Program-made: the position numbers and the translations under genes
Notes under the pieces: model-generated
Told to the model about the DNA's origin: nothing
Seen by the model: only the letters and a program-made list of their open reading frames with translations
Database searches by the model: none
Source of the DNA: Paralichthys olivaceus
Taxonomy: Eukaryota > Chordata > Actinopteri > Pleuronectiformes > Paralichthyidae
Direction of reading: 5' to 3'
Length of the DNA: 64,000 nucleotides
NCBI RefSeq assembly: GCF_024713975.1
Contig: NC_091097.1
Location: 7,558,861 to 7,622,860, forward strand
Shown here: positions 24,535 to 55,900 of the stretch, piece by piece
Numbering within the stretch: position 1 is the first letter of the stretch
How the letters are laid out: every line of letters begins with the position of its first letter

Positions 24535-27500
24535 TTAGTTTGCTACGACCCTTGACCTCATCCAATCCAGACTGGCAGGTAGACTAGAAAGAGAGAAGAA
24601 TAAACCGGTCATTCTAACACATGTTGATTTTTCAGCGTTGAGTCATGCACCATGATAATAGTGGGGAGAAAGAGAGAGTGCTGGGTGTGTGGGACTCACC
24701 CCTCTCCTGTCAGGGCGCAGCAGGCCTGGACATGCCAGGAGTGAGTTGTGATGGAGTCGAGTGTGAGGCACTGAGAGATCTCCTTGGCCGTCATCGAGCC
24801 CTTCATGTCCTGTTTGTTGGCCAGAATGAGGACGGCTGCTCTCTGTAGGCCCTGCAAAACAAGAGTGGATGGATTAACAGTGCTGCTTCCTTTTAATGCG
24901 TATATGTTTATAGAGCTGTGATATTTAGGCCTAGAAAAGGAAACCACCAAAAACTGCTCCCACGTCAACTTCGAGAACAAAGAACAGCAGTGTCAGCGGA
25001 AAATTTGAAAAGAATTTCAAGGCCCTGACTCACGCAGTCTATGCTGAAACTTCCTCATGGTGTCGTGTCATGGGTTAGTCAGCTATGGTGCAATCAGTCA
25101 CAGTGGGAGTGTCACTTAAAATATCAAAACATGTATAGCAGACGCAGCAGTTTCACTAATGCTTCACAGGGTTTTTACGTCATGGCAGGTTTTACGTAAA
25201 GGCAGCATTCAAACTAAAAGAGGCACGTTCCATTCTTATCTACATGTCTGATGTTATTTCTTCCTTGTGAAGCGTGTCGTGGAACATTGTTAAGAAAGGT
25301 ACTACTAAATGAAGTTCTATTATCACTATTACTACTTATTTCCTAAGAATATTTTGCTGTAACCTGTAACCTGATATAATGAATACTAAAAAAGATTTTT
25401 TTTATAACTCTCCTTTAAGCAGTTATTATAATATATTTATGATTTACATGTATATAAAAGTATATAAAAGTCTTATATATAGGTTTATCACTGATTATAG
25501 TTAAAAGCATAGTCTTAAGTATTTAACAATATAAAGTACTATACAATCATTTCATAAGCATTTATAGTCAGTTTATTCAATTAATTGATTATAACCAACT
25601 GTAATGTATTTGTAGGAGATATAGGTGGTTATTATGTATTCAACAACCAAAATGAACGAGTGAACAGATAATATAGTGAAGTAAATGTGTGATAAAATAA
25701 AAGATGTCTTCACTGGAGTTATTGACAGAAAAATACAGGACTGAACATTAATGAATACTATTACTTATGTATAATAAAATTGTTTAAATATATAATATAA
25801 TATAATAACTGCTTAAAGTTACATCATAACGTCAACTTTGTTTTATTACACTGTTGTTCATAAGAACATGTTTACATTTGCTTCTAACTGCACCATATTC
25901 TGTTATGAACTCTTTTTTGACCTTTACCAAATGTTAAATGTTGGGCTTAAGGGAAAATGTTAACAGAACCATCTCAGACATGACAACAAAAACATGCACG
26001 CAATGCAGAAGTGTGAGAGCTGGGGTTTGTACCTCGTGTGCGAGCATTCGGTGCAGTTCCTCTTTGGTCAGAGTCAGACGTTCGCGGTCAGTGCTGTCCA
26101 CAACCAGAATGACTATCTGAAAAAAAACATGACATAATGCATATTGATTATTATCATTATTATTGCTACAGTTATTATTATTACACAATTAAGAGATATG
26201 TCATATTATCAGAGGCCATTTTATCAGTGGAGGGAGCATAAGTCATCTGCAGCAGACTTGTGTGATACAGTTAATTATGTAACTGTGCTTAGTACCAGGC
26301 TTTATAAACCCAAGCAGCAGGGGAGGATAATAAAGAGTCAGAGTAGGTTAATGTGCAGCTGAGTCAGCATAAGCCTACAAACCTTTATAATGCTTTCTGT
26401 TTCTGTCTTAACTCTCGAATATCACATGTCACAGCTGGTGTCAGCTATCACTGATATATATATATATATATATATTGAATTTTAAGTGATCAATGTTCTT
26501 CCAGCCAGTGGCTGGAGGTCGACCGATTATTGTGAAACACGATATCTCAAGAAACACATTTGGTACAAACGTTTATTTGAACTCAAAGATAAACTGATTA
26601 GATTTTGGTGGTTGAAGCTCAAAGGTCAAGGAAACCGTGACTTAACAAACCCCCATGAATGTGTTATTTTAAGAAAGCCTCGACAGAGAGCCCTTTCAAA
26701 TTAGGCACAAATGTTCACTTAGATTCATGGATTAAATATTACATTGAGATGGCCAAATGTCAAAGGTCAAGGTTGCAGTGGCCTCACAAATCATATTTTT
26801 GGCCTCTTGGACACGATATCTTAAGTTTGCTTTAGGGAATTTCTTCAAATTTGGACCAGTTGTCACTGTGACTGCAGTGGTTGGTGGAGGCATTTGTATG
26901 CAGGGTGGTAATTCTGGGTTGTTTTTGTTTTGGGGAAATACATAAACAGCTCAAACTTAAATTTACAAATTATGTTCTGCTTTTATGATCAATTTCTAAC
27001 CTATGAAAAGTGTTTCAGTATCTGAACATACAGTTTACAGTTGATAGAAGAGCTTAGTACAGTTAGTGATCCACACCTCTGTGTTGCAGTAGTACGAGTG
27101 CCAGCTGGCTCGAAGGCTCTCCTGTCCTCCTATGTCCCAAACCAAGAAGTGGGTCTTCCGCACGACGATCTCCTCAACATTGCTGCCGATGGTTGGCGAC
27201 GTGTGGACGGCCTCCTTTGTCAGACTGGATGAGTTTGTGAGGGAGGAGGAGGAAACATTTGAAATGAAACGGAAAAATGGCAGCACAGACATGAAGTTAT
27301 GTGAGATTATCCAAAACCACTTACAACTGGTAGAGGATGGTCGTCTTTCCTGCGTTGTCCAAACCCACTATGATGACTTTGTGCTCTGCAGGAAAAGATT
27401 CAAAATATTTGTTGAACGCAGTCTATTCGGGAGCTGCGTGATTGAGTTTGAGGGCAGCGTAAGACACACAGAGATAAGATAAAACAATGGTGCTATTACA

Positions 27501-31947: not shown

Positions 31948-34900
31948 TCAGCGGATGTAGACGTCCCTCCCCCACTCATCCTGATTCTTGTTGTGGCTCA
32001 TGTTGGCCCCTGTGTCCACAGGGTCCTGGCAGTAACGCTCCCTCAGCTTGGCTCGTCCATGCGGCTGCATCTGGCTCGGGATCGGAGGGTGGTTGAGGTT
32101 CTCCTGGTCCGGCTCGGCGCCCTCGTCCTCCCAGGACGCCTGTCTGCCGTGATGCTGCGCTAGGTGCAAGCGGCTGCCCCCACTTCCTCGGTAAGGCTCG
32201 GGCTCCTCGTAGGGGTCGGTCTCAATGTCCATGCAGGAGTCGCCGGCCTCTGTGTAGGCCGAGTCCCGGCTGCCCTGGGTCTCAGAGTCGAAGGTGTCCT
32301 GCCGTGAAAGGCCTCGGCTGCTGCTTCCTCGCAGCTGGCCACGGGAAGAGCGCAGGTACGTCTGCTGCTGCTGTTGCTGCTGCTGAGACTTTCCTCCCAG
32401 GTCTGTCTGAAAGTCATGTAGAGTGCCGCTCCCGCCACAATCTGTCAGAGGCCCCTCTCGCTTCTGCTCGCCACGCACCAGGTACGGCCCCTGCAGCCAG
32501 CCAAAGCCATGCCACACGAAAAACCATGCAGAGACACAAACAACAGAGCAAAATCCAAGTGTCAGTCATTAGTCAGCAGGATTAGCAGGCAGGGTTTAAA
32601 ATACAGGCTTTATAAGGAGCACCATACACGTGTTATATTGAAAGCATTCGCGTAAGTGAGTGACACACACACACACACACACACTCACATAATTTAACAT
32701 TCACACACTCACTTGCACTCACATCCTCCACAGAACCAACACAAACTGCAGTTATTCCACAAATGTGTTTCATTTCATAAATCACAAAAGCAACCAGCAA
32801 ACACTCCCAAGCAGTTATTCACCAAGCAGTGTCTACCGCTACAGCAGTGCCACCTACTGGCTGTCTGACCTCATGAGAGAAAAGAAAAGCAGAACGATCA
32901 CCATGGCTACCAAGTGATTACGTAATAAATTTAACTCTGTGCTTTGTGATGTTTATAGTGATAAACAGAGGTCAGTATATTTAATAAACTTAATGAAAAC
33001 TTTATGTAAATAAAGAAATAATAATAATTCATTTGTTATATTCTTTTGTTGACTTAAAAATAGTGGATGTTTGGTTCAGCACTTGCCACTTAATTTCCAT
33101 AATTTTGAAGACTTGAATATCTTTGACAGCATGGAACTCATCATAAGTGAGGACGAGCCAGGAATAACCTTCGAGTCAAGACAGCTCTGATTAGTGTTTT
33201 AGCTGTTAAAAGTTATGATAAAAGAAGAATAAACTGGACAGTGTTAGGAACAGCCCCCACCAAACTCAGTGTTTCTGTTTGAAGAGGCGGACATGACTTG
33301 CTGTTTTCAGGGGCGGTACCATGGCAACACGGAGGAGGAGGACAGCAGACTGGATTCAGCCTCCCGGAGAAGAGAAAGTGCAGGAGAAAGGAGGCCGAGG
33401 AGCAAAAGAGGCCAGGGTGGGGGGCAGCAGATGTCAATTCACTCTTGATTACAGTGAAACGGAAGGGGGGGGGGGGGGCCTCGGCGGGCAGAGGTATCGG
33501 TTATTCTTTAGGTCCAGTGTGGTTGGAGTTGAGCTGCTCACACAGTTTTAGCAGGGAGAGAAACCTGCTACAATAAAGATGGTTTTACTGGTTGGTGTAA
33601 TGAAACTGGCTGTTCATGCTTGGGAAATTGGCTCATTTGTTAATACAATTCTTGCATAGGTTTGTTTGTGCGAATGTGCATCTGTGTTGTGTTTCTTTAT
33701 ACAGCATAAACAGGCTTTAGATGCACCCCTCCTTCAGGGTAAAGAGAGCAGGCTGCTGGGTTTGAGGTTGAGTTGCCGGAGTCCCCCCTCCCCTTGCTCT
33801 CTCTCTCTCTCGCTCTCTACTGGACTTCAGAGAGCGTGTTCTTCTACTTTTCCATCATTGGCTAAACCGTCCATGTCAGGCCACAGATCCATATTTCTGC
33901 GCAGGGAGGTGAGCACCTGTACCTGCAGGTTGGAGACGGGCTCAGGGGAGGCGGCCAGGGCTGCCGTGGCCATGGTGCGGTTGAGCAGGGGGTTGGGTGG
34001 GTTGCTGCTCGGGGGGTGCGTTGCCTTCCAGTAAGCCTCCAGGTAGTCGGCCAGGTGCTCGCAGGCGTCCTCCAGCTGGTTCTCGTCCAGGATGATGTCA
34101 AACAGCTCCTGCATGAAAATAATTTCGGACCAAAGTGAATAATTCTCCTCTGTTCAAGCAAAAATGATAGGAACTGATATTTTATTTGTCACAAAATCGA
34201 TGGTTTGCAAAGTAGAACTCACAGGTGGGCACTGAGCCAGCTTGTCTGCTGCCGCCGTCTGCACAGTTAGATACTTAGCCTGAGACTTCCCCCTGGATTT
34301 AATGAGTCTCTGGAGAACCTGCAGGGAGAAAACAACACTGTGTCTCCTGATACAACTTTTATCTTTGATAATATATATATGTGCACATTTGTACAGCTGT
34401 GCGATGTATGGTTTTAGTTCTATCTTTATTCAAGAGAGTGGTCTTTCAGTTGTAGAGCATTTGCAGTACTTCTGAAATTACAAATAAACCCTGCTTGTGT
34501 TTCAAATTCCTACATTCCAGTGTACGAAGACACCTTCATGAAGCAGGACTCAAATGGTGAACATGGAACGGTAAAATCAAGGATCTTTACGTTCTGGGGA
34601 GACTGTTGCAAGCAACTATAAAAACAAAACAGAAGCCACCCTGTATCTCTTCCTTTTAATTTTTATTTGAACAGTACCGACAGCAAACGCTACCAAACTG
34701 AAAGAGAGAGAGCTGAACCTGGAGCACAAGCAGGGCTTATCTGAGTGTGAGCACAGGGTTTTGAGTGAAGGTATTACATAATGTGAACGTGAAAGTCCTG
34801 TTCCCAAACTGAAAGACCTAGCTCTTCAAAACCAAAAACATTGTATGGAGCAAGGTTTTGACACGTCGGTCAGTTTGGTTTGTAGCATGTGTTGCTTAAG

Positions 34901-37828
34901 GACATGGGTGTCAGCAGTGCCAGATGTGCGATAATGTTTGTATGTGTATGATCATTTTGCCCCCTGTACGACCAATAATACCAAAATTCCCGTAATGTAC
35001 AATGATTTCATCTTTTAATGACAGTGTTAGGAGATTTCTTAAGCAGTCTAGTAAAATATCCTGCGTCTGAGACTACTAAAGTGTTTTGAGGACTCAAACA
35101 CTTCACCCACCCCTCCATCAGCGTAGTGGTGAGTAGAGTGACTTTGAATTTTTCTGTGAACTATCTATTATGCATCTCTTCTCATATGACGTCTTCCCAA
35201 CCAATAATATTTGCTACGCAATTAGCTAAAGTACTATTTATCTATTTATTGTTTGTGTATTGTATACTTCAACATTTCCCATCAGGCAGACAGTTGGTGG
35301 CAGTAATCCACCTTCATGCATAGCAATGCAGCAACAACTGCTACTTAACATGCACAGTATCAGTGGGAAAACATGCATGCAGGTTAGGTTTGTCACAGAG
35401 CACTGAATGAAAGCTTTTGTCCACCGGGTTCCTCTGAAGCCATCTGATGCCGTACCTTAGGTGAGGCTATTTTGATATAGACAATGATGGGGGCGAGGGA
35501 GGTCTTAGCAAGCTGAGAGGGATGGTTGATGGTGTCTGCATCCAGAGCGACCAGCTGGAGGGTGCGGGCCAGCTCAAAGATACGCTCGATCTCACTCTGC
35601 ACCTCCGCTGAAAGCAGAATAACAGATAAGACACGTAAACACAGCGTAAAAGTCATGATATGATTATTTAGAACTTCTTTTTTAGAGGAGACACAGCACT
35701 GCATGTACATCAGCCACACTTCCTCTACTCTGTGAACAAGTACATAACCGACATGTTAGTACTTGGTCATGCATGTGAAGGTTTAAGAAAAAAAACACTT
35801 CCAAGCATATGAAATAGACCACGGATCAAAGTTCCATTTATGCACATAGCTAAATGGAGCAGTGTCGCATCCTCATTCTGTTGCCACCTCCTGACATTCA
35901 GGGTGTCCCTCACGTGCTTCAAAGTTGCTGAGGCACTTAAGAATGAGATGCCTGTGGCCCTTGGAATAACTTAGAATAATAAGGGCACAATATTTCACCA
36001 TGTAAACAAAACGGAAACAAAAAAAAAAATAATCACCCTCATCAAACAAATAAAGTGGAACATTAGTTTTGTTAGCGCTAATTTGCACAGCAGTGATTAT
36101 TCTATCAGGTGAGCCACTCAAGTCTGTGGACTGCTTGGGCGTTTTGTTTTCATTGTTCCTCAACAACAACCTATGAGAGCTTGTTATTCAGCATTTCGAG
36201 CACAGTTCCCCGCGTCTTTCTTTTTATCAGCTCTGTCGACGTGTAAGGAGAGAGATTACAAAACCGAGAAACCAGAATGCTCTGCGCCTGTCTCGTCGAA
36301 CCTCAGCGCCTCCACCCCGGCAGCAGAGTGAGATAACAGGGGTAAGGCAATCTGCAGAGACACAGGGACCTGCACACTTTTCTGCAGCCTCCAGAGGGCT
36401 TGAGAATAAAGAATCGAAGCTGGAGGTGAAAAAACGAGCATTTGCAGAGTGATAGCAAACTTAAACTTTAACTTGTTTATAGAAATGGCAGGCAACTTCA
36501 AAAAAGACTTGGACTTTGGAAATTTGGAGTTTTTGGGGCAAAGTCCAGCTTCTATTGCATACATACATCACAGGGATAACACTGCAGAGCGGTATCGAAA
36601 GTACTGGCTTCCTCTCTGCACAGAGAAGCAGAGCAGCTACCAGCCGCCCTGCCGCCCTGCTGCCCTCCCACGGATCTGTTCCCACTTTGAATTTGCAATT
36701 TTTTCCTTTTTGTTCGAGACTATAGGCTGTCACACAGATCGATGAGGAACAGAGAAACTGACAGACAAGCAGACAGGCAGACAAACAATGTATGAGCAGA
36801 TGATGAATATGATGAGGAGAAGAGAAGGGGGGAGGAGGAGGGAAGAGGAGAGAGGCTTCAGCGTTTTGTGGTCGAAAGGAAAGCATACGTACCCAGTACG
36901 TCTGAATCAAAAGACAGTGGAGGGGAAGAGGATGAGTGGTGGGAGGGAAAAGGGGGAGGATGGGCAAAGGGCAGAAAAGACAGGATGAAGAGAGAAAGGA
37001 GGAGATCAGACTCTGGCAGTGAGAGCGGGAATAAAAGGGAAAAACTTGACATTTTCAGGTACAATGTTGGTTTAAGTTACAAGCTCTGTTCATCCTCATC
37101 AACAAGGAACAACATTACGTCAACTACAAGTCGACCTCAAAATCATTCCATATAAATGGAAATTAAGTGAAAATCACAAGTTATCACAATGGCTGAAAGA
37201 GCATCTCAACATCCCCCTGAGATCTTTCTGCTGACCTCCAGTGGCTGCATTTCCCGCTTAATACTTTTTAAAAATGTTTTTCATGTTTTACCCTTTGATT
37301 TAATTTTTTTCTTTTATTATTTCTGTAAAAAACAGAAATGACCTCTGTGTATGATAATGGACCATAAACATAAATATGCCTTTACTACCATTGGGTACAT
37401 CACTGTTCTGTGTAGACCATGTATATAAAGATGGACTACATGACTTCTCCCCAAAAATGAAACAAAAGCGTTTTGATCTCTCACTAGTGACTGGCTGCAG
37501 TGTTTATGTTTCTGTCTACTTTTGTTTTAGCTGAGACTGACTAACTTCAGAGGCACAAGATGGCAGCGTTCGCATCTTGAATATTATGGCTTCATTTCTA
37601 GATGTGGGAGGAAGTAGAGACGCATCGTCCATGTTTATATACAGTACAGTCATATTGTGCTTCCTGTCAGTGTCTCCTCTCTTGCAGCATTATAAAGATT
37701 TACTGTTTAGATGAAGTTTTACAGGCATTTTTATAATTAAATCAGTTTGTGAAATGTCAACTGTTGTTGCAAACCAAGCTGCCAATAAAATGACTTTAAA
37801 GAATAAATGAATCTATCTATCTATCTAC

Positions 37829-37859
<31 letters not shown>

Positions 37860-40800
37860 CCATATAGATATGAACAACAGAGAGAAAGATAGTTAAATGA
37901 ATGTTCAGCAACATGACATGATGAACAGAAATGTTTTCCTTCTGATCCTAATCTTTAAATATCTATCATAAACTTTCTCATCCATCAAATGACAAAAAGG
38001 GATGAGTGAAACACATCGCCTCACCCAGGCTGGAGCGGGTACTGGAGCGCTCAATAATGGTGTGTTTGCTGGGGTTGTTGAGGACGGAGCGCTTGGCCAG
38101 GGAGATGTCGGCTGTCACCCGTGTGATGGATATCCTGAAACAGTGATACAGTGCACAGGTTGTTGCGGGCATAGTAATCAAAAAAAAGAAAAAAGAAAAA
38201 ACAGTCGCTATGGAAACACTTTCTTACCTGCCCTCGAACTTGTGTTTCAGAAAGTCAAAGAGCGCTTTCTGCATCATGTCTGTCACCTAGTGATGAGGAA
38301 TAAGACAACAGACAATAGAAATTGAATTAGATGTAAAACTCCCTAACCAGTGCAGTTTCTTACACATGAGGTCACAGCGACCTTTGACCTTTAAACCCAC
38401 TGAAATCAAATCAGTTATATCTTCCCTGATTTCAAGTTATTCTCTAAAGGCAGACTTGAGATATCATGTTCAAGAGGCAAAAACGCTTTGACCGAGTCCA
38501 AGTGAATATTTGTACCAAATTTGTACAATTTCCCTCGAGATATTTTTGAGGAATTGTGTTCACAAGGCAAAAAGTGATTTATGAGTTCACAGTAACCTTG
38601 ACCTTTGATCTTTGACCACCAAAGTCGAGTCCCTTCATCACAGACAACCTGAAAACATCACTAGCACGCAGCTGTAACAAGCAGAAGTTGGAGAGGGTCT
38701 TTTCACCTCATAGCCTTTGAGTGAGGGCCCGACCAGGATGATGGGTCTCATGGAGGGAACCACGTCGTAGGGGGGGACATGCTCCATCTGAGCAAGGAAA
38801 AGAAAGAAACTGCAGTTAGTTACGTTGCCATGTTGCATTTGAAGCGTACACTCACAGTGAACTCAGAACGCAAAAAAATGTCCCCCATAACCCCCGTCCT
38901 CCTTCAGCTCTCTGATTGATGGATGGTGAGTTTCAGTCCATGAGTTTTATTGACCACCTATGAATCATCCCTGGGATCAATAGCTCACTGAAAGCACTCT
39001 AATATTTCTTATTCTGCAGCCTCACATAATTAAAGTGTCCATAATTAAAGCAGACGCCAGTATGTCAGGGGAGCTCCTGTGACCGTGCTGCTGCTCCGAC
39101 ACACACGTCAGACTTCACACTTTTTGTATGAATCAGCATCACAAAAAATATTGTCATGTTATCACTGCCGGTAATGTCTGATAAGAGATACTTTTAGTAT
39201 ATTTATATTTGTTAAATCATTTGTTATATCTGTGTTGCGAACTTTGCTATTCTACAATAATTTCACAGCACAAATCTTTATTCAAACCATTTATGCTTAG
39301 AACTGAATACGATACACTCTGAGTATATATAAACTGATCACCTATATTTTTGCAAAAATTTGTTGTATTTAATTATAATTTTTTTAATTAAAAACTGAAT
39401 ATAAACATCCCTGGGAGCGCAGTACTATAGTCTGTTAATTTGCTTAATCCGTTGACACGAAAAACAGAAAAACCTATAGCTGACACAGAGACTTCTACAG
39501 AACACCCACACACCGGCATATTGCAGCACATGAACCTTTGGCTCATCTGTGTATTATGAATCATGAAAGCAATGATTCATCTATAAGGACTCCATAAGCA
39601 TCTGTCGTCTGTAGAAACCGACTGTTCCTCGCTGAGACCCAGTCACACATCCTATGTACACACTAACACTGTGAAACTGGATGTATTTTTTTTTGTTCAG
39701 ATCTGTATTCCAAGCACGCCCCCTCTTCCCTGTGTGCGCACTGTACAGCTCTTCAGGCAGGAGATAGTGCTGGAGTGGCACCGCTCCACTACATTACATC
39801 ACATAAAGCACAGCAACGGAAGCTCATTTCCCCTCATTTGTATTCACAGAGGCTAAAAATACATATTTTAAAAGTTTCCAAATGGCTCTTGTCTCTAAAG
39901 GGGTAGAGATGAAGCACTGAACATAACAATAGGGCTCATTGGTCTTGAATAACATGTGCACAGTTTAGTGCGGTGAGCAACAGGGAGGATGGTGTAGATA
40001 ATACTCGTTGATTCTGTTTCACCATTTTACCAGTCAATACAATTACAGTGATTTGTATTGGGCTCGTATAACAGTCATGTTTACAGTAAATAAAAGACAT
40101 TTACTAAAATAGAGCTGAAAAACTAAAGAACATCATTTGTTCGACAATTAATGATTTTGTTCAAGTCAAATAAAAGCATTGGACTCAAAGTGATGACCAT
40201 TGGTTTACAATGTAAATTGTTAATATCTAAATATATATTCTTCTTCTTATCAGGATAATGCTTATTATTTATTTTCTCTCCATACAGTCGTTAAGATTAT
40301 TGTGCTTCACAGTTTCCCTGTTTGTGTTTAATTAATTGAATCATTTAAATGTTATATAAATGAATGTTAGATGCTTTTACAATACTTTGCTCCAGTTTAA
40401 TACTGAAAGAATTACATGGGGATGTCACTTTTTAACTTTTCAACTTTTCAACTTTTCATGTCATTTTAAATTAACATCTTTGACACATCATCAAGAAAAT
40501 GCTGCAACGAAATTTCAAAATGATTGTCAAATTGTCAATTGTCCCCCTGTGTCATCATATAGCTCCATTTGCTCCAGTTTAATACTAAAAACATTCCAAT
40601 CAATGGAATGACCTGAGGTTTAACTTTCAAACATGTCATTTTGAATGAATATATATGATATACCAATCTACAAAATTAGGTAAAAAATTTCTAATATTAT
40701 CATTATATATTAGATATGATTTACAGTTGCCCTGTTTGCATTAAATAATTGTTTACATTTGTCTGAAACAGATTTATAATACTTAATTTATTCCAGATTA

Positions 40801-43800
40801 ATACTAAGAAAAATATGCTATGGGTTGACCAGGTGTTTCACTTTTATATATTTGTAATTTCTATACAATTAAATAGTTAGAAATTACATTAAGAAATTTA
40901 GTTTGTTTGCATTAAATGAATGATTCCATTTTCTTAAACAGATTTACAAAAGTTACTTTGCCTCAAGTTGTCACAAAAAAAACATTTGTCTCAAATGGAT
41001 GAAAGTGAGTGCCTATAATTTTAAATGGAAATATTTTAACTCATAAACATTAGCATAATGCTTAGATAACTATCGGGGGGGAAAAAAACTTGAATGTGAT
41101 TCAGATTGCAATGAGAGGCATAAAAACAGCTGATTGCAGGCGACTGTCACTCTAATCAACAGTCGTTAATGGCGTTGAAAGCCCATCATGCATTACTGTT
41201 ACACTTTGACTAACAGGGTCTGAGACGCACATGCACCTGCATCTTCACACCGACAGCTGTGATACGAGCTCTCGGGAAATGGTCCTGCGAACACTTTGGT
41301 TTGAAGGGTTCCACACATGAGCATGAAGACGTGTGTGTAAGAACAATATTCTGATTTCTTTCCACCACTAGGAGGAAAAAACGTGACACAACACAGGACA
41401 AAGGGACGAGAGTAAGAGTTGAAATGTTAGAGGTTAGTTCACACTCACCGACTTCTGTTTCTGTTTAGCTGGGCCACCTACAGTATCATTCCACACAAAA
41501 GCCAGAAGAGATAAAAAAAAAAGAAGCACAAAACACAAGAGCACATTCAGTTATTGACAGGTTAGGATTGGGGAAGAGGGGGGGCGGTGAGAGAGGAGTT
41601 GTTTATTGATTAAAACAGATTTCATACTGACGCCCTCCTCTGTGGCTTCATTTTAAAATAGATCCAGACTGATAAGCAGCAGCAGCAGCAACCATTTCAG
41701 AGTCTGTCAGTTAGTTCAACGCCTCTCCCCGGCTGACAAGCACAGAAAACAAATATCCAAACACATCTCAGCAGAACCATCATGACTGGAGCCTTCAGTG
41801 TTCACTTGGGCCAAACAGTGTTAGGGCTCGGGAGCCACAGTGGCAGCAGCAGTTGGGAGTTAGTGAGAGGTGGAGAGAGGGAGGAGAGATTAGACCTGAC
41901 CACATCGGGAGAGTAAGGGGGAGCAAATGCAGGAGGGGAGAGGAAGGAGCCTGACGGGGCGTGCTACGTGTCCTGGGCCCCTTGTGTTACCTTCTTAAAG
42001 AAGGGCAGTCGGTGGGTGTTGGCCTGAGGGGACGTTACGCTGCCTGACATGCCCTTGGAGGAGCGAGGGTCACCCTGGGACTCAGGGGGCTCCTCAGCAT
42101 CCAGGTCGAGGGGGTCAACGTCAAAGGTCACAGTGGACATGTCCACGTGAGCTGATGAGGAACGAGGGCGGGCGAGACAGAGAGAGAGAGAGAAGGAGAA
42201 GAGGGGAACATAAAGGGAAGAGGAGAAGGAGGAGCAAGAGGAGAGAGCAAAACAAGGTGAAGTGGAAGAGAGTTGAGAAGAAAGCAGAGGAGAAATGCAA
42301 AAAAATGGGGGGGTGGGAGTAAATAGAAGGAAGAATGTGAGATGCATCCAGAAAGAGGCATGGAGGAAACTGCAAGAGATGGCACAAGCTAAGACTGAAA
42401 CAGGCGACACATTTAAAACTGGAAATAACAGCGACAAGAGAGTGAAAAAGAAAACGTCAGATTCATCACGAAGCGAGGCAATGATAACGTGAAGAGCTGA
42501 GGAGGAAGTGAATTCACTGAGACAGTAGAGAAACAAAACCCCAAGTGTAGATGTGGAAGAAGCGAGGTGAAGGAGCGGCTGCAGAGGAAACTGGGAGAGA
42601 GCAGGAGGAGATAAGAGAGAAGGAAGCTGAGAGGGGAAGCTGCGAGGAGTCGAGCATGCAGTCGAACTTCCTGCAATTGGTCCAAAAGTCTAAACAATCC
42701 CAAAACTTATTTTTCACACAAACGACCAAAAGCTATCGATCAGTTTGATCCAAACCACCTTTTTTTTGGCCAACACTCAATAATTAGTGAGTGTTGGATG
42801 TGCTGACAAGAAGATTATCTTGCTATTTAACAGAGCCATGCTAACAGTTTCCCTTTCTTTTAAGTTGTTGTGCTAAGCTAAGCTGTGTCTCTATCTGTAG
42901 CTCCCTCACCAGGAGACAAGTAAGTGTATTTCTCAAAACGTTAACTTTCAGTCAGATCAGCCGCTCAGAATGTACCAGGTGAGTTAGGACAGATGCTGTT
43001 TCTAATATACAAGTATTAGGTTCAGTTGAGTGGCTCTATTTGATTAACGAAACCCCCTTAAGTCAATACGAACTGTTTATTTTTGCACTTCCCTCCCTCC
43101 TGCTGTTTCTCTGAACATCGAGCAGCCGTTCTGTGTCGTCCTGGTGATCACGCACGCACGTACACACACACAAGACGGGCATACTTATCAAGTTTAATGA
43201 GTGCAGTCCATTCTCGGCTCTATTTTAGTCCTGACAGACCTCTCAAGACCTCTCTCACTTCACACGGCGAGCCACTGAGACGCGGCGTGATTCATCATCA
43301 TGCCCGACTAACTAGCCAATTAAAATGTTCATCTAAATATCAGTCGGTCTCATCTCGCACGCGCTCTCTTTTTCTCTCAGACAGGACTGCACGAGCGCCG
43401 ACACAAACACGCACACGCAGTCACTATTTTGCCACTTGATAAGGAGACCCCTGTGACCTCACCTGTGCCAGGAGGGGTGGGCCTGCGGGTTCCCGTGGCA
43501 ACGTCCAGACTGGAGCTTCCTCCAGATTTACTGAAATGTGAAATCAGACATGCAGAAATTATTACTCTGTGAAAGAACAATATGTTACATTCACAGTATT
43601 GAGTACATGGCACTCATTGATTATATTTTATTATCTTCATTTTATTTTATTGCTATTTTCCCTAACAATAATTTCTTTGATATGCATTAGTCTCTAAATC
43701 TGAATGTTTTTATACATTTTTTACTTCTCTGATTTGGCAATCATCTGTAAAGCTTTGTATTTGTTACGTTTAAATTCATTCTTGTTTTTTAATTGATGTC

Positions 43801-46800
43801 ACAAGCAAATATTTGTTAGGTGTATTTTTGCAAGATGACACTGATATGTAGTAAACAAGGTGCTGTTGGGACCTCTCTGGTATTAAATAGTAAAAAGTGT
43901 CAGTGAGCTGTTGATTACGTGCTTTAACTAGAAATTGTATATTTAAATCTGATGCTGATTTTTTGAATACAGATATAAATAATTCAAATATACACAAGCA
44001 TTCTTGATTTGTTTTTCTAAACACAACGTGAGACTACAGAGACATACAGTATATGTACACACTATATTTGCGTAGTGGAATACAGTGACTCACTCCAGTG
44101 CTTTTGTCTATTTCCGGATGTTTTATATTGCCTAGCGGCTGAAGTGTGACTCAGTTGTGACCTGTTTTAAACAGTGTGCTTGTTTGTGCTGCTGATACAG
44201 AAGATTCAGAGGGCTTTTTTTTGTAGTTACCTGGAGCTCAGTCGGTTCTGTCTCATCCTTTGCTCCTGCAGCAGACGTGTGTTCTCCAGTTTGACCGGGC
44301 TGGGGATGAAGCCCACCTCACAACCTTCCTTCACCAGACGCCCGATCCACCAGTCATTGTTGTACTTCTGCACAGGGAACAGACAGCCAGACGTCAGTAA
44401 TGACACGCCTGCAACCAGTGTCTATATTCACACTATTTATACACTATGATGACACTAGACAGCACAGAGCACAAATGCTTCCCAAATACATTATGGCACA
44501 CTTTCTTGCAAGATAATTTTTACATGCATAACATTCTAGCGACAAAAGTACAATTATGTCCCAAAAAATAGTTTTGTAATGTTAAGATGAATAGATAAAT
44601 TCTTCTGTTCGTTATGTTTATACATACACATATATGTTTCTGTTGATTTATTTGTCAGCATGATTTGAAATAATTTGCACCAAACTTTGTGGAGAGATCA
44701 GGAAAGGAAAACTCATTACATTTTGGTGCATATCAGGTTTCCTCTACATTGTGGGCATGTATTGTACAAATTAAATGAATCTGGGAAGTTCAAACCTCTT
44801 TAATGTGCAGGAAGTCTTTGGCTTCAAACGATATGGCCATGCCCTGCACAGGAACATCATCGCTGGGGCCGGGGTTGTAACCGACATTTGTCCGCACAGC
44901 AAACGCCACTGGTTTGGTCTGAAGCAGTGACGGAAAATACAGTTATTAGCAGCAGCTCTCCAAAGAAGTAAGAGTGAGCTGCTGACCTCACGTTGAGTTC
45001 AGCATCAATTTGATAACAAGGTTTACCAGGGACCAAAAAAAAGAAAGTAGACACTGATGCGAAGATTATGCAGCAATAATGTCAATTAAACAAACACTGA
45101 CTACAACAGCTTCTTTCTGACCTTTGCTTTCTCAAGCGTGGCGAGCGCCTGTCTGTCAGCCTCCTTCCTCAGTGCCTCTGGGTCCTCCTCCAGGGACACG
45201 TCTGAGTCCGACGGCCGGCTGGTATAGGAGTCTGCAGAGCCCTGAAGTGCATATTGAGAGGTGAGGAGCGAAGAAAGGACAAAAGTGCAGAGCAGATCTA
45301 TAAATCAACTCTTGGAGGGAACACAAACAGAAAGGGGACACATGAAATTGCAAGATTAACCCAGCGGGGTCTGGGTATGGGTTTAAATGAAAACCTGTTT
45401 GCTCATCGTTAGGTATTCCCGATGTTCTCCTGCTCCTTTTCGCCTTGGCTATGAAGAGGAGAGGTTGCGCCTCAGCCTTGCAGCTATTTGTTTGCGGTCA
45501 AGATGTCAAGACCGTCTCATGAAGCGTAACCTACATACAGTCAACACAAAAGGGGCCTCTGCCTTCATATTGCATGAAAGCTGACTCTGTGTAATTCGAG
45601 GTGGGGAGGATGCATCAACATCAGGTCGAAGATTGCGCCGCAGCGTTAGAGAGGCCGAGGAGTTAAATGGGTTTGCACAGGTAGAACGCATCAGTGTGTG
45701 CGGGGGGGTGTCGAGTGGAAACAGAAAGATTTGGAGAGAGGGAGAAAAAACGGTCCGATCACTGTTTATAACATTAGTGTGGATATAAATTTCTCATGAA
45801 GTGGCTACAGTTTCCAACACATCCACCACTCATGCACGGTAACTCGACTCTCTCCTGGTGACCCCTCATGCAGACAGCCATAGCACAATAAAAACCTGAG
45901 CCTCCTGTGAGCCTGCGGCGTCGGCCTACTGTACTCTCCTGCTGCAGCGAGGGAGGCAGCCAGAACTTCTGAAGTGTTTGAGTGTTCAATTTATATAACA
46001 ATCCCACTTGTTCTCTTCTTGCTGTGTTTTTTTTTCCCTCCGTCTTTGAGCCAACAGGCTGCCTGGCGCTTTGTAGGAGGTGCCGACAAGAATGCGGACA
46101 GCTGAATGTGCCAGGCAGAAGAAGTGAGTCACTAGGTGTGGGCTTTTAAAATAGAGGTGAGAATACGCAAAGATGACATACGCCATATGTGATGATGATA
46201 AAAAAAAAAAAATCCCTGAACGTGTGTAATCAGAAAATACACTCAATGAGTGAGTGCAACAAATTCTCTTGGTTTAGGTTCGATACTGAAAATGTAATAC
46301 CCAAGTTTCTGATATCAAAACAACACTTTATATTCCTTACAGGGGAAGATAAACAAATATGAGTTTGGTAAATTAAGGATTTCTGCCAAAAAATAGCATA
46401 ATCAATAACAATTGAGAGGATTTCTGATTAAGAAGAGGAATTATATGATTGAAGGAAAGTAGACATCCTCTGGAATCGAACCCGAGTATCTGACACCAAC
46501 TTTCAACTGCAAATATTTTTCTTTTAGAACACAAAAAGTGCAAAGGATTCAAATTTTTCAATTGTTTTTAAGCAAATATTTGCTATTTTTTCTCAGTTCT
46601 TGGGGAATACAACTGCATATGTGCAAAACAATGAAGATGTATGAAGTCTTTTGTGGCTGCAGGGAATGCTGCACAAAATCTACAGGACCGCTTCATGTGA
46701 TGTCACTAGAGGCGGCATTATCTGCTACCATCATTACTCAAATCAAACTGTGGGTGGTGGAGTTATCATTGAGCATTGTGGGTAATAAAGATGTCTGGAA

Positions 46801-49800
46801 CTCGTGAATTTAATTATAGTTTGACAAGGGGACTGTTGGGCCTCGGTGGAGGCAGATGGCAAATGTTACAACATTGCAATTTATTAAAAGAAACATGAGA
46901 ATGACTCAAAAGAAAAATGCTTCCATTCATCAAACACCGACCTGTGACGAGAAGTAGAATTAGAGTTGACCTGCAGGCACCAGAGTGAGAAGCTGAAGCG
47001 GTTGTCAGTGTTTGTGTGTGATTAACGCTCCTCTACGCTTTGATTCCCGTCCTTGCGTCTGTGTATGATCTAAAATGAATGGGCAAACACGAATGTTGAT
47101 TCTGTCTCTGCCACCTGTCGCATCAAGGCGCTTTGTGACTTGGCAACGGCACACGGAGCGCAGAGACACTCCCTGTTGCCAAGGTGACGACTTGCTTATA
47201 CCCCTCGCATCCTCAGGCATTCAAGAAGCATCCCCACTTCCTGATTCATTTACTCAAACTCGGGCGCAGATCACTGTGTGCCTGCATCCCACTCGAGCAG
47301 GAAGAACGATCCTGTGAGTGACACGCAGAGTCTAATGAGGACGGTAACAGCTGCCCCCACCCAGCGGCTCTGAGTCATCCGGTAAAGCGCACAGGTGCAT
47401 CCTGACACTGAGGACAGACTAAGCGAAGGGTAAGACACCTTGATGTGGGGAAAAAATGACGTGTGAAACAACCACAATGTCACCAACCCGCTCCCTGCGA
47501 GAGGTCGGTGATGCAGCAAAATATAATATAGAGCAAGGGAGAGTGGGAGGGATGGGCGATGACTCTGTATGTGTCTGTGCATGCGTATATTTGTGTGTGG
47601 ACAAATGCTTGTGTCTCTGAGTCACTCTAACAGTCCATTCACGTCACACACAACCCCGAAAATAAAACAGGCAGGGAAAAAAAGCGATGCATGAGCACGG
47701 ATACAACAGTCAATACTTGAAAAATAAGAAAAACGGTGAAGGTAGATGAGGGGAGGGACAAAATAGCAACTGATCAATAACCTCTCTGCACCCTCTCTAC
47801 CCTGAAACCATACAGAGGACTGAGAGAACAACTGAACATATTCACTCTACCTTTTCATTACTAACACTCTCCTTCCTCCCCTCTTCTTCTTCTTCTCCTG
47901 CTCCTATGTCATTGGGTTGTGTCTCTAATTTAGCTCCTTGCTTCACTTCACATACAGCTCCTGTTCAAAATAGCTACAGCCCACCTGATGGCGGAGCCGC
48001 TTTCCTATTGGCAGTGCCAGACCCGAGACCCCCACAAGTGTCATAGTAACCATCTCTGCTGCTTATTCCAGGCAGCCGGCGAGAGCGGCATCAGGAGGGA
48101 GTCGGGCAGAAGATAGAGTGATCAATAGCAAATAAAAAGCCCTGAGGGGAAATCAGTGGTGGGGGGGGGAATGGCATAAAAGCTTTACAACAGGTGATCA
48201 ATGAGCTATTTTTTTTACACAGTGTTTGTCACATCAGCAACACTCTGGTCAACACAGTACATGATAACAGCAAAGCCTTTGGGAAGATGGTTACCGATGA
48301 CCGCAACAGAGCTGAAACTTTGTTTTATATTTCTTTGCTAAAAATCCAAACTAAACTGCACAGGAGGTAAAGAAAACCAAAGAAAAGGCGCAGGAGGCAA
48401 GGCTCTGTGATTATCATGAAAACGAAGCCAAGGTGTTTCTCCTTCATTTTCTGCAGATTGGCTGCCACCATGATAAATTTACACCTCCTTAGCATTGATA
48501 ATGAATAAATGGAGCTGGAAAAAAAGAGCAACAGAACATAGGGGTTGCATTAGGGAGATTGGGGAAATGGAATAGGGAGTGCGGGGGATGGCAAAAGACA
48601 AGCGCTTTGAATAATCAGGGTTGAAAAGAGTCGCCCTGCAGCAAGGGAGCGAGTTAACGTCGTTTCTCCTGATGCAAGGCTGCATCCTTTGTAAATAGTT
48701 TCAAGAAAAAGGGAAAGTAGAAAAAAAGAGAGGCAATAAAGAAGATTTGCTTTTGGAATCGGCATAAAGCTTATCAAAGAGTGCACACATATTGATTTGG
48801 TGTTAACATCTTTCTAGTTTGATGCTCATTTTAACATCTTTGAAAAACACCAGAAACAATCGCCACAGTTTTCCTCATGTCACGCAGCAGCTCACAGGTC
48901 AAACGTTTTAATCTGCTTCTGCCACAAACAACGGGAACATCGCAGCAGGTGTTGTCAGGCTTCACAATGTGTGAATAAGAAGTGATTACCATCTGAGAGC
49001 TAACACATACTTCCAACCCCTGCCCGGGTAATTAACCAGATAAAAATATCTGCATGTACTTATCAGCTCAGATGATGTGAAAATATAAAAAAAGAAGAAG
49101 AAGACGGGAAAGCGAGAGCATCAAATATCCTTTTCCTATTTGGATTATCGCGCTGAGTCTCCTCGGGCCTCACTTATCAAACATTTCAGTGAAGAAGAAA
49201 GAAAATAGCTCATCTCTTTCCAGCTGGAAGCCAATCAGAATGCATTAGTAGCCGAGCCTGAGCTCTGCAGTATATTCAGATCACATCCAGAGTGGGATCA
49301 GCTCAGTTAGCGCAGGTATGAGGAGAAACTCACAGGAGAGGCAGATGTACAAACTGAGGCTTCACACAGTACAGATTTCCTGTCTGAAGCTAATGGCCGG
49401 TGGCAGTAAATGGCTATATTCCTTTCCTCTGTCACAGCAGCGTCATGGCAACCAGCTGGATGGTGTGTGAGTGTGTGTGTGCTGATGACCAGAAAAATGA
49501 GTCATGGTCCGACCTCATGAGAAATTCCCATTTTCACAAACAAGCAACAAGGGAATCAAAGAACAAGCGCACGTTTTTTTTGCGAAACAAATAAAAAGAA
49601 AAAAAGATTTTGTAGTTAAATACAACGGATCAATACCTGATTTGAGGAAAATAAATATGTTCTCCAACAAGCAAAATATGACTAATAAACATCTGATATC
49701 TGTTTTGATCCGTACTCAACGAGCACTGATATTCAACACCCGGTGATGCATAAAAACTACACATATATAATAGATATATAATAGAAATGAAACTATGAGC

Positions 49801-51142
49801 CAATCGAGAGAAGACGAAATGGAAAGTTATTTATAATCAAACAACTTTAAGCATCTGTTTTTGTACAGTTGGTCGCACAAGAAATGTCAGTGTCACCTTA
49901 GACTCTGGGAAAATACGACAAAACAACCTCTTCTATTGTTTAATTTGGACACCACATACAATTATACCACCACTTGTGGAAGTAGCAGTTTTGTAATAAA
50001 TACTTAGCAAAAGGGTAAACAACAAAAATATTAATAATTAATTGATAGTTGAGGCCGTGTATGAAGCTTTGTTTGTTCCAGCCTCTGAAGTGTGAGGATT
50101 TGATGACTGTAGCCTGAACATCTTTGGGTTTAAGAAATTTAAACCAGTTTGGGTTTATTTGCCATAGTTGATTAACTCATTATTTGATAGTAAAAATACT
50201 TGTTAGTTGCAGCTCTACAAATGCACTTAAAATCAAATGATAATACCGAATTATTGTAATCATCAGCCTTGCAAACACTGCGACAGAGAACAAGTTTGTT
50301 CCACTCAGTCCACTATATAAGTACAAGATCAAGCCGAGGCCTGTGAGGGACAGGGGGAAACAGCAGTGACAGGAGCCCCCTGAAATGGCCACAGTGCTGG
50401 GACGCTCGAGAGGCAACGCACATAGCAGCAGTGGCAACCGGTGGGACTGGAAGTCTAATTAAAAACACAGCGCCTTTCCCGCAGCTGTGGTCCGGCCCAA
50501 AATGGAATCACAGAGTGGGGTGAGAAGAGTGGGAGCGAAGGGAGAGAGAGAGGGACACAGACCGGGAGGTTCAGATCTATCAGGACACAGGCTGTGTGTT
50601 ATAATCTCCTGTCATACCTCACAGCAAAAGAGTCTGCTGAACTTTCAAAACTCTATCCACACACACACACACACACACACAGAGAAACACCCACACACAC
50701 CCACACAAGGACAGAAGCTTGGACGGCCGCAGATTCCAGTTAAGGCAGATGCAGCCAAAAAGTGGACAGCTTGTGGATCTTACCATGACGGGCCGTTGAA
50801 TCCTCTCGGTTCTCTCCATACCTCGTTTGCCACGCTTGCCACACCACGGCAAACCAAGGAGGCAGCGCCGGAGTCCACAGACAGAGTTACGTGTGTGTGT
50901 GTGTGTATGTGTGTGTGAGAGAGAGAGAGAGAAAGAGAGAGAGATACTGGCAACTAGTGTGAGTGTCTGCCGTTTAGTCTGACAAGTGCATAAGTGTACA
51001 TGTGTGTATGTAAGTGTGTGTGTGTGTATGTGGTGCGTGTGTGTGAGTGTGTGTGGTGTGTATGATAGAGAGAGGAAGACAGGAAAGAGTGTCGTATGTG
51101 TGAAACCAGGAGAGCGCTCCCATAACCTCCAACCCCTTCATG

Positions 51143-51239
<97 letters not shown>

Positions 51240-52850
51240 GCCCACCCCCTCCACCTACTGCCCCCACCCACCCACCTCCACAACCCAGAGGAACGTGAAC
51301 CTTGTGTAGAGGAAGGGGAGCTGGAGCTGGCCGGGGGTCGGGTTGCAGGACTTGTGCTACATTTGCAAACTGGGGAAATATATTTAGCCCTGGCCGCTCA
51401 GAAACAGGGACGCGAACACACCAAGACCCAGAAGGAGGCCTGGTATGCAGCCGTCAGCCATTCGATGTCCCCGTTGACGTGAGAGGGGGGCTGGGGCAGT
51501 GCCCAGGGAAACCCCCCTCCCCTTCTCTCTCTCTTCCCCCCTCTCTCTCTCTATCTCTATCCCTTTCTCTCTCCATCTCTTTGATTCACGGCCTCTGTCC
51601 TGATCCCATTCTTCCTGACCTGTCGCTCCGTCTCTTGTCTCCTGGATATCAGGGTGTCAGACGAGGTATTAATATGGATATGAGGGGAGGAAGGGGAAAA
51701 AAAGAGGGGGAGTCTGGCTGGTTCAGTGAAACACCAGTGAACTGAGGACATGAAGCATTTGAGGCAACTGTCACTCAACTACTTTTAAGTATCTGCTGAA
51801 TAGTTAATGCTCAAAATCCATTTATAAGTCCACTACATGTTGAACATCATCCAAAATGTGTTGTCTTGTATATTACTATGGAAATCATTGGGCTAGATAG
51901 CGTTGGATAATGTTACAAATCCGGGAGGTCAACAGGCTGATAGGTGTGGTTACAGGGTTAGTGGTGGTCCACTAGAGGGCGACCTCTGAGGCAAAGACAT
52001 GGCTACAGCCCCCCGAGCACCTCCTCCTCTTGTGTGAGTGGCTGATGACGAGGCGGCCAGCTGGGAGAGGTGGAAAAAAAAGAGCCACTAGTGCAGCCAG
52101 ACAGCAGCAGCAGCAACTGGTCTTCATATGTCACGACTGACAGGAAGATGGCTGCGGTCTCTCTCTGTCACATACAAGCCAGGATATCATCATATGGTCT
52201 ATGCAGCGATGAAATATTAAACATGGATTGATCTGTACTCTGGTGGAATCAGTTTCTACAATGCTTCTTCCCCCTCAAACATGGTTTTCAATTTATCTAA
52301 AAAACATTTCACACTTTGTAAATCGCAGTCGTGGGACGACAGAAAATTAGGTCTGCGTGAGATGGGGAGACGTTGAATCACCTGACAAAGCTACGTTTTT
52401 TCCCAGAAAATATACATGAAACATATTTCATTTAGAGGAGACTGAATCTCGCATCATGAATTTGGGTTTCAATAGCCACTGTCTGCAATTTGAAGGAACT
52501 TGGAAATGGAACTGGAACGGACCATTAGTTTTGGTCTCAGAGCGAATCCACAAATGCGACGCAGCTGCCATGTGTTCATTGTACCTTCCGATTTGATGTT
52601 ACATTATTATGCCATTATAATGTTGAGTGTGAGTGTTTTTCCGTCTGAAGTGACACCATGATCCCAGTACGTAAACTTTTTTTTATTCAGTGACAACAGA
52701 ACACTGCTGGAACAACGGCAGACATGTTGCTTACTCTACAGAGCAGCGGCGGCAGCAGACTGTCTCAGGCTGTCTACACGCACCTGAAGATGGAGTGTGT
52801 TTTTGTTGAACTCGACACACACACACGGGTGCTGAACAAACATCCCTCCC

Positions 52851-52947
<97 letters not shown>

Positions 52948-55900
52948 CATCCCCACCGTCTCTTCATCCCACTGTGTCTGCACACAGAGGGAGATTCAGT
53001 GGCCTGGTTTCCATGGCAACCAGGCCGAGTGTACCAGCTAGCTCCACCGTTGGCTGATTGTGGCTCTCGTGTATTTGTGTGTGTGTGGTGAGTGACTGTG
53101 CAATTGCGTGGGTGTGTGTGAGACTGTAAAGCCTATACAGGGCTCTGCTTTGAGTTCCTCAAGGAGAGGCTAAAATGGGCTGTATGTACAAAAACCTATA
53201 GAGTGCCTGTGTTCTTCTTTTTCTTTAATTAAAGCCAGTTTTCTTTTTTTTAATCTTAACAAGGATTCAGGAATAACGCTCATGTGTAGTACCACTAATA
53301 GGCACTTCATACGTTCAATGGCCGAGTCGCTAAATTAATTTCTGGATTATGTGCGGCATTTCCACTGTTTGAAATCCCTGCTCGTTCCACTGCCGGCCAT
53401 AATGAGGGAAATGCTGCGCAATAGCTTGACACTGGGAGGATGTATATCTCAGGAGGCGTTAAATCATCCTTTCTATGGTTAATGAGTTCCTCAAAGAGTC
53501 AGAGTGATTATGAATCCTGTCTAACCTGCAGGCCCCAGTGCATGTGGTCTTCCAGCACCGCGAGTCGCAGAAGGATAAGGTGGACGGATGGGTGGTGTGT
53601 GCAGGCAGGATGCAGCTATAACCTTTAGAAACCACAGGAGAGTTCAGCTCCCTGTGTTCGCCAACAGTGCTAGGATTTTTTCTCTTCTTTTTTTCTCAAA
53701 AGCAACACCAGCGCTGAAGAGGTAAATGTCATTCAGCACGGGGCAAATCATTTCTTCTCACAAATGAAGAGGTCAGACGGAAAAAAGGGGGGACTCATTT
53801 AGCCGTGACACGGTGTGGCTTTGAGAAATGTCATGTCCAGACAAGGACTGCTCAGCGGGTCCAGGGCGTGAGGCCTTAAACCCGGCCTCCTGAAGTCCCT
53901 GAGGAGAGGAGATGTTCCTGTCTGAGGACGAAAGCCTTGTTGACCCGTCCCAAACGAGAAAGTTAATCCTAGCCGATGGAAGACTGACATGTTTTACTAG
54001 CTCTCTCCCAATCAATGCTTCTACAACTGCAGAGCAGGGCGGGGTCAGGGTCAGCGTGGGGGGTGAGTCGAACACCTGGGGACTGATAATCAGTATCTGA
54101 GCCCTGAAGGAATCTCTGCTCGTGTCTCTCCGCTCCGCCACTGTGACAATATTGCTGTGCACAGCTGTAGTCACAAGGGTTTACTGCTGATGTTATCAAA
54201 GCCATTTCAATGTGTCAGATACAGAGCAGACTGTGGGCTGCTGGGACAAGCATGGGTGCAGAGAGGGAGAGCCATCGTTTTTAAAGACAGGAAAATAGAA
54301 GCTTTTCATTTTTTTTGTCACAGTGTAAAAATTGAGAAACAAACTGGGACATGAAGAAATACCGAGGTGAGAACTGTCAGGGAAATAACGGATACAATTG
54401 CAAATGAGATGCCTTCAACTCTGAAGTATGATCAATTTTCCACTAATCACAGGAGCCAGAAGGTTTTCTATTTCAAAGATTATTTTCATTCCTGCTTGCA
54501 TTACACCTCATATATAAAAGTCTCAGGCATGTTTAGGGGACTGATATATATGATAAATAAGAATCAGAATCTATCACAAACCGAATCTGTCATGCCACAA
54601 ATATTTCATGTATCCCTGTCTGTCAGAAATTCCTACAGGAGATTTTACTTTTAAACAAACAAATAACGCAAAATAGAAGAAAAACTCCAGAACAAACATC
54701 CAGGGATCACAGTGTTTAAAGGTTATTTCATTGTTTTGTCCAAGTAACTTTTTAAAGGTGTTTTATTAATATGTGTAAATTGTTGAATGTTGGATATACA
54801 ATAAAAGTTAAATAAAATAATCTTAAGTCTGGGAGGAGATGAAACTAATTTAAAGGATGCAAATGTTAATAAGGAGCCAGTGAACTCTCAGCATTAAAAG
54901 TGCTCACTCTGACTCCATTAAACTTTCACATGACTCTTCATTAAATAAGTTAAGAGGAAGTGGAGGCTGAGCTCTCCGAGGGGAGGATTAAGAGTTACAC
55001 GTTACCTGTCGGACAAAGCTGTTGGAGGTGGTGTCGGAGGAGGTGCTTCCGTCCGAGCGCTTGAATCGGCCCTTCCGCTTGGCGTACTTTCCCTGAAACC
55101 AGAGGGGGTTGGAGGGCGGGCAGGGGGCAAGAGAGAAGAAGAACACAAAGAAAGTTTAATGGTGCTGATCCATTATATCTTGATGTATTTATTTGTAAAA
55201 CCAGAGAGCATGATGACCACAAACAATTGGTGTAACATTTTGTAAAAGCCTCTGAATATGATCAGGCGGTCAGATGGAGGCAGAGATAAAGCAGCACGAG
55301 TCCCAGACTGTTCAGGAAGTCGACCAGAGAAGATTCGTGACCGTGAACAGGCTTCATTACTTGTCATTTTTCATGTTCTGATGCAAACTGGGACCTTGTA
55401 ATCTGATTGGCAGCCCCCTGGCAAACGGCCTATCCGGGTTGGGCAGAGGCCACACATTGCATTATGGTCCCACTCTGCCCACATCGCCATGGTTACACGA
55501 TGCCGACTAATCACATTTGTTGGCAATCAGAAGACTGGCTGTGTTGTTCGAGAAGAGAACAGCTGGTTAGGAAAATGCAGCAGCACAGAATAATGCTTAG
55601 AAAGACAAACACAGCATGTTAACGTACAGAACATGTCACCACATCTAGCATGGTTACCACATCTATTACCCACGAAACACCTGTGTTCTTCTGCTCTCTC
55701 ATGAGAAGGGGGGGTATAGCTCAGTGGTAGAGCATTTGACTGCCGATCAAGAGGTCTCTGGTTTTAACTCCGGATGCCCCCTGGTTTCCTGTTGCATGAT
55801 TTGCTTTAATAGCAGGAAGGAAGCAGGTGGTTTTGGTTTTTCATCTTTAATCCTGTTTACTACACATTGCCTGATCAATGTAGGACTGCTTACTTAATTT

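Follow-up and report, generated by a model that had tools for sequence, protein, structure and literature searches.

The cacnb1 gene of Paralichthys olivaceus almost certainly carries the beta-1a/beta-1b C-terminal switch, and its sequence supports a scheme in which use or non-use of a single splice donor, that of exon 13, would set the C-terminus of the protein. Splicing from this donor to exon 14 would yield beta-1b. When the donor is left unused, transcription would run on into intron 13, adding the 31-residue beta-1a tail, after which translation would stop. Exon 7a together with the beta-1a tail would give the skeletal-muscle DHPR beta subunit, with the tail supporting DHPR-RyR1 coupling and tetrads. 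The read-through is presumably used in a muscle-specific manner in P. olivaceus, function and tissue being taken from the literature. Both the switch and its conservation among vertebrates have already been published, and this fish is a further instance.

In humans, beta-1a corresponds to the form with exons 7a and 13a and makes up 92.26% of CACNB1 reads in myotubes; Hogan 1999 and Powers 1992 are among the references given (PMC12963491). Work with relaxed zebrafish, in which DHPR tetrad support was demonstrated for beta-1a constructs, shows that tetrads and full calcium release depend critically on beta-1a residues 490-524 (PMC9171810). The same source puts homology of the distal tail at 34% across diverse vertebrates, its first 10 residues being completely identical, and elsewhere terms the tail 'highly homologous ... 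from fish to mammals'. The switch matters physiologically, because full excitation-contraction coupling in skeletal muscle requires the tail (PMC9171810). A literature search on cacnb1 intron retention returned nothing on point, and the phrase 'exon 13a' is absent from the CACNB1 papers among the matches listed; neither result is a claim of absence.

Table 1. Features of cacnb1 in the window (positions are those of the window)
Feature	Position	Strand	Description
cacnb1 exons 2-14	31948..55092	minus	exons mapped here
HOOK exon 7a	41991..42151	minus	161 nt; beta-1a cassette; aligns in rabbit beta-1a
HOOK exon 7b	41449..41477	minus	29 nt; short cassette, ...AKQKQKS
cacnb1 exon 13, shared part	33923..34108	minus	end of GK domain and proximal C-terminus, ...PVSNLQ
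exon 13a extension	33827..33922	minus	putative 31-residue beta-1a tail and stop TGA; starts with the intron-13 donor GTACAG
intron 13, donor used	32491..33922	minus	1,432 nt; CAG/gtacag ... ggctgcag/GGG
exon 14, beta-1b tail	31948..32490	minus	GPYLVRGEQ...EWGRDVYIR, 180 residues and stop

The gene occupies the minus strand of the window, by which we mean the whole 64,000-nucleotide stretch of DNA that was analysed (Table 1). Motif searches for exon 1 upstream of 55092 gave one unconvincing match. In PDB searches, the product of exons 2-13a scores 867 bits against 6jpa_C over query residues 1-481 of 491, 781 bits against the beta-1 chain 7vfs_D and 765 against the beta-2 chain 8hlp_C. We take 6jpa_C to be from rabbit, 7vfs_D and 8hlp_C from human and 1vyv_A from rat, and 7vfs_D is presumably beta-1b. 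The SH3-HOOK-GK core is closest to beta-1 and forms a clade with rabbit beta-1 in a tree (support 100/99). Both HOOK cassettes are 2 mod 3 in length and are thus exchangeable in frame. At the other end of the gene, the exon 14 tail is in phase with exon 13, aligns along its full length with 7vfs_D 445-598 (E 3.4e-18) and ends in VYIR. Intron 2 contains a long CA/TG dinucleotide run (50983-51309), which shows up as TH/CV repeats on translation. An Arf-family exon (Pfam PF00025, E 6.1e-15) lies in an open frame at 27035-27367, on the cacnb1 strand and downstream of the gene; in human, ARL5C presumably adjoins CACNB1.

Exon 13 itself is 186 nt long (34108-33923, minus), in phase 0, and ends ...CTGCAG, followed in the intron by GTACAGGTG. 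If it is left unspliced, the frame stays open for 31 codons (33922-33830) and closes with TGA at 33829-33827, so that the read-through of 31 codons and a stop placed at 33827..33922 by the preliminary description is exact to the base. An open run of this length is unremarkable alone, since the other 12 cacnb1 donors mapped give read-through frames of 1 to 28 codons; it is the peptide that identifies the extension. In a PDB search, exon 13 with the start of the tail (query residues 1-83) aligns to the beta-1 chain 6jpa_C at 428-510, and homology to rabbit V490-M524, contiguous with exon 13, is present in the fish tail. Residues 1-10 match rabbit beta-1a 490-499 exactly. Aligned over the whole rabbit tail, 15/31 residues are identical: besides these ten, they are one glycine, the tryptophan aligned with W503 and the terminal EHA. 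The alignment to the 35-residue rabbit tail scores 66, a value that 0/20,000 residue shuffles reach (maximum 21). As a further control, stop-free 31-mers were sampled every third residue in the six frames of the window; the best 4 of these 9,408 against the rabbit tail are the fish tail itself and three overlapping shifts. The match to the mammalian beta-1a C-terminus, already recognised in the preliminary description, is thus borne out. Used alone as a PDB query, the tail finds beta-1 at just E 0.44-0.52, ranked below repetitive designed proteins, because it is too short for significance.

Of the L496/L500/W503 hydrophobic triplet, the fish tail has the L and the W, and M takes the place of L500. 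In the triplet region, 33892-33881 (minus) encodes two natural changes relative to beta-1a, L500-to-M and F502-to-L, with W503 kept. For the triplet there is in vitro binding evidence, and its loss has a partial effect in myotubes (PMC4510890); in zebrafish it is reported as not essential (PMC9171810).

That one donor decides between the muscle isoform and a longer form, as first proposed, holds for the C-terminus, where the beta-1a tail and a complete beta-1b tail are the two outcomes. Because the choice between exons 7a and 7b also sets the muscle isoform apart, the exon-13 donor alone does not define it. Two transcript forms could deliver the tail, one with a 3' end within intron 13 and one retaining the whole intron. 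With exon 14 as the last coding exon, no coding junction would follow the stop of the tail, and escape from NMD is expected for both forms. Since this fish and mammals both have both tails, the two-way choice probably predates their split, as had been suggested.

An exon-13 search of the same genome, covering 588 Mb in 25 contigs and giving lower bounds for large families, finds at least seven CACNB exon-13 places, among which only the present cacnb1 groups with beta-1 in the tree. One of the others, here called C17, scores 724.8 bits against the beta-2 chain 8hlp_C and 652.7 against the beta-1 chain 6jpa_C when exons 3-5, 7 and 8-13 are joined as the query, leaving out exon 6. Its last exon has beta-2 as the sole PDB match at E 0.001 and is also found by the fish beta-1b tail (E 4.6e-6). 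In the tree, C17 and human beta-2 lie outside the beta-1 and beta-3/beta-4 clades, yet are not united, and the assignment of C17 to cacnb2 therefore rests on the PDB scores and the last exon. C24 and C10 group with rat beta-4, and two genes on C6 form a clade beside them. The C6 pair is tentatively labelled beta-3, since only C6a was scored (570.7 bits to beta-4, 564.2 to beta-3) and the tree holds no mammalian beta-3. A divergent CACNB paralogue is found on C16 (G000:C16:6408359-6408526; loci L011 and L038), with a long branch of 0.47 changes per column.

The start of the cacnb2 intron bears on the alternative that fares best, in which the beginning of intron 13 owes its conservation to a role as a splicing signal (an extended donor or a regulator site) and not to the peptide. 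The stretch with cacnb2 exon 13 and its intron start (L014:1730-1996, G000:C17) reads past the donor as VQVLSRRGANGGHRGTGVGDTCRQYRK and then a stop, 27 codons in all. Its first 12 nt, GTACAAGTGCTG, differ from those of cacnb1, GTACAGGTGCTC, at two positions, and GTACARGTGCTS is common to both intron starts. At +4 to +12 the two donors are identical at 7/9, the highest of 164 paralogue donor pairs, in a comparison that omits exons 5 and 6, has exons 2 and 7 from two genes each and lacks exon 12 of C10. A splicing signal would explain why cacnb2 shares most of the 12 nt, and also why identity of the beta-1a tail peaks over residues 1-10. At the nucleotide level the margin is narrow, as four other pairs reach 6/9, and both differences in the 12 nt are synonymous third positions. 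Moreover, peptide features well beyond the donor are also kept (the tryptophan at the W503 position and the EHA end), and in vivo work shows the distal tail to be critical (PMC9171810). Conservation as a splicing signal is an unlikely account.

Among the seven exon-13 donors, a VQVL read-through is found in cacnb1 and cacnb2 only, the other five being without it. In a scan of both strands of 322,853 bases (the window and loci L001-L016 and L024-L039), 746 CAGGT sites are present; VQVL follows only those of cacnb1 and C17, while at least 3/4 residues are shared by 11 sites, both included, in a test chosen after the data were seen. Past the first four residues, inspection finds no homology to the tail in C17, VQVL alone being shared without gaps. 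Tentatively, the beta-1/beta-2 ancestor may have read VQVL past this donor, with beta-1 keeping and elaborating it as the skeletal-muscle coupling tail and cacnb2 retaining a remnant of it or an isoform so far overlooked; taken together, chance and a shared splice signal are likelier. In zebrafish, 3' RACE on two beta-2 genes recovered one C-terminal variant per gene (PMC2365960), which argues against an abundant beta-2 read-through isoform, and none of the literature matches listed for CACNB2 exon 13 retention is on point, with no claim of absence. If the cacnb2 trace turned out to be ancestral, the coupling tail would be older than the beta-1/beta-2 duplication, and the origin of a coupling module specific to muscle from the start of an intron could be explained.

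Two further alternatives to the switch carry far less weight. Because the sequence alone was read, a further undetected exon might carry another C-terminus beside exon 14 and the tail, but this is very improbable: the match between exon 14 and a known C-terminus extends to the end, the tail ends EHA-L where rabbit ends EHA-M, and intron 13 has no other NNGGTRMG site, a search for the stronger donor form only. A chance open frame past the donor, with only the spliced form real, would suit a run near the up to 28 codons of the 12 other donors, but is scarcely credible for a peptide that begins with ten residues of rabbit beta-1a, keeps the EHA end and has a score reached in 0/20,000 shuffles.

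What might control the exon-13 donor was considered next to the switch itself. Its U1 duplex energy is -7.1 kcal/mol, rank 7/13 in the gene; among 59 donors of the seven CACNB genes it shares ranks 23-25. One beta-4 donor ties with it, and the two C6 exon-13 donors are much stronger (ranks 1 and 4 of 59). A weak donor as the switch is rejected as stated, U1 pairing being ordinary. AATAAA is absent from intron 13, and a single ATTAAA (32985) is at chance level, with 0.47 expected from first-order Markov resamples, so that a 3' end inside the intron is unsupported by sequence. Intron 13 contains one copy of the RBFOX motif TGCATG, beginning 40 nt before exon 14, against an expectation of 0.69; it is not taken as evidence.

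Around exons 7a and 7b (42451-41149), QKI-type ACTAAC sites lie at 41864, 41715 and 41438, of which 41438 is 11 nt beyond the end of exon 7b. Three of the gene's 15 ACTAAY sites thus fall in this 1.3-kb block (resampling P 0.004, uncorrected), a modest clustering, as 22/437 sliding windows also reach three. ACTAAY is the QKI motif, and Cacnb1 splicing is reported to be QKI-dependent in mouse heart (PMC10202634). The sites are a lead only.

Compared with known systems, the predicted read-through form resembles mammalian CACNB1 beta-1a (exon 13a, 6jpa_C) in having its tail directly after the shared exon-13 sequence and in keeping the L496 and W503 positions and the terminal EHA. It differs in length (31 residues versus 35), in its diverged middle and in its last residue, L after EHA in fish and M in rabbit. 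The spliced form resembles mammalian beta-1b (7vfs_D) in the sequence of the exon 14 tail and its final VYIR, whereas the fish tail has 180 residues with a glutamine run and the chain 154. The cacnb2 gene of the same fish shares with cacnb1 the VQVL read-through, encoded in 12 nt with two synonymous differences, but the rest of its 27-codon read-through (SRRGANGGHRGTGVGDTCRQYRK) is unlike the beta-1a tail.
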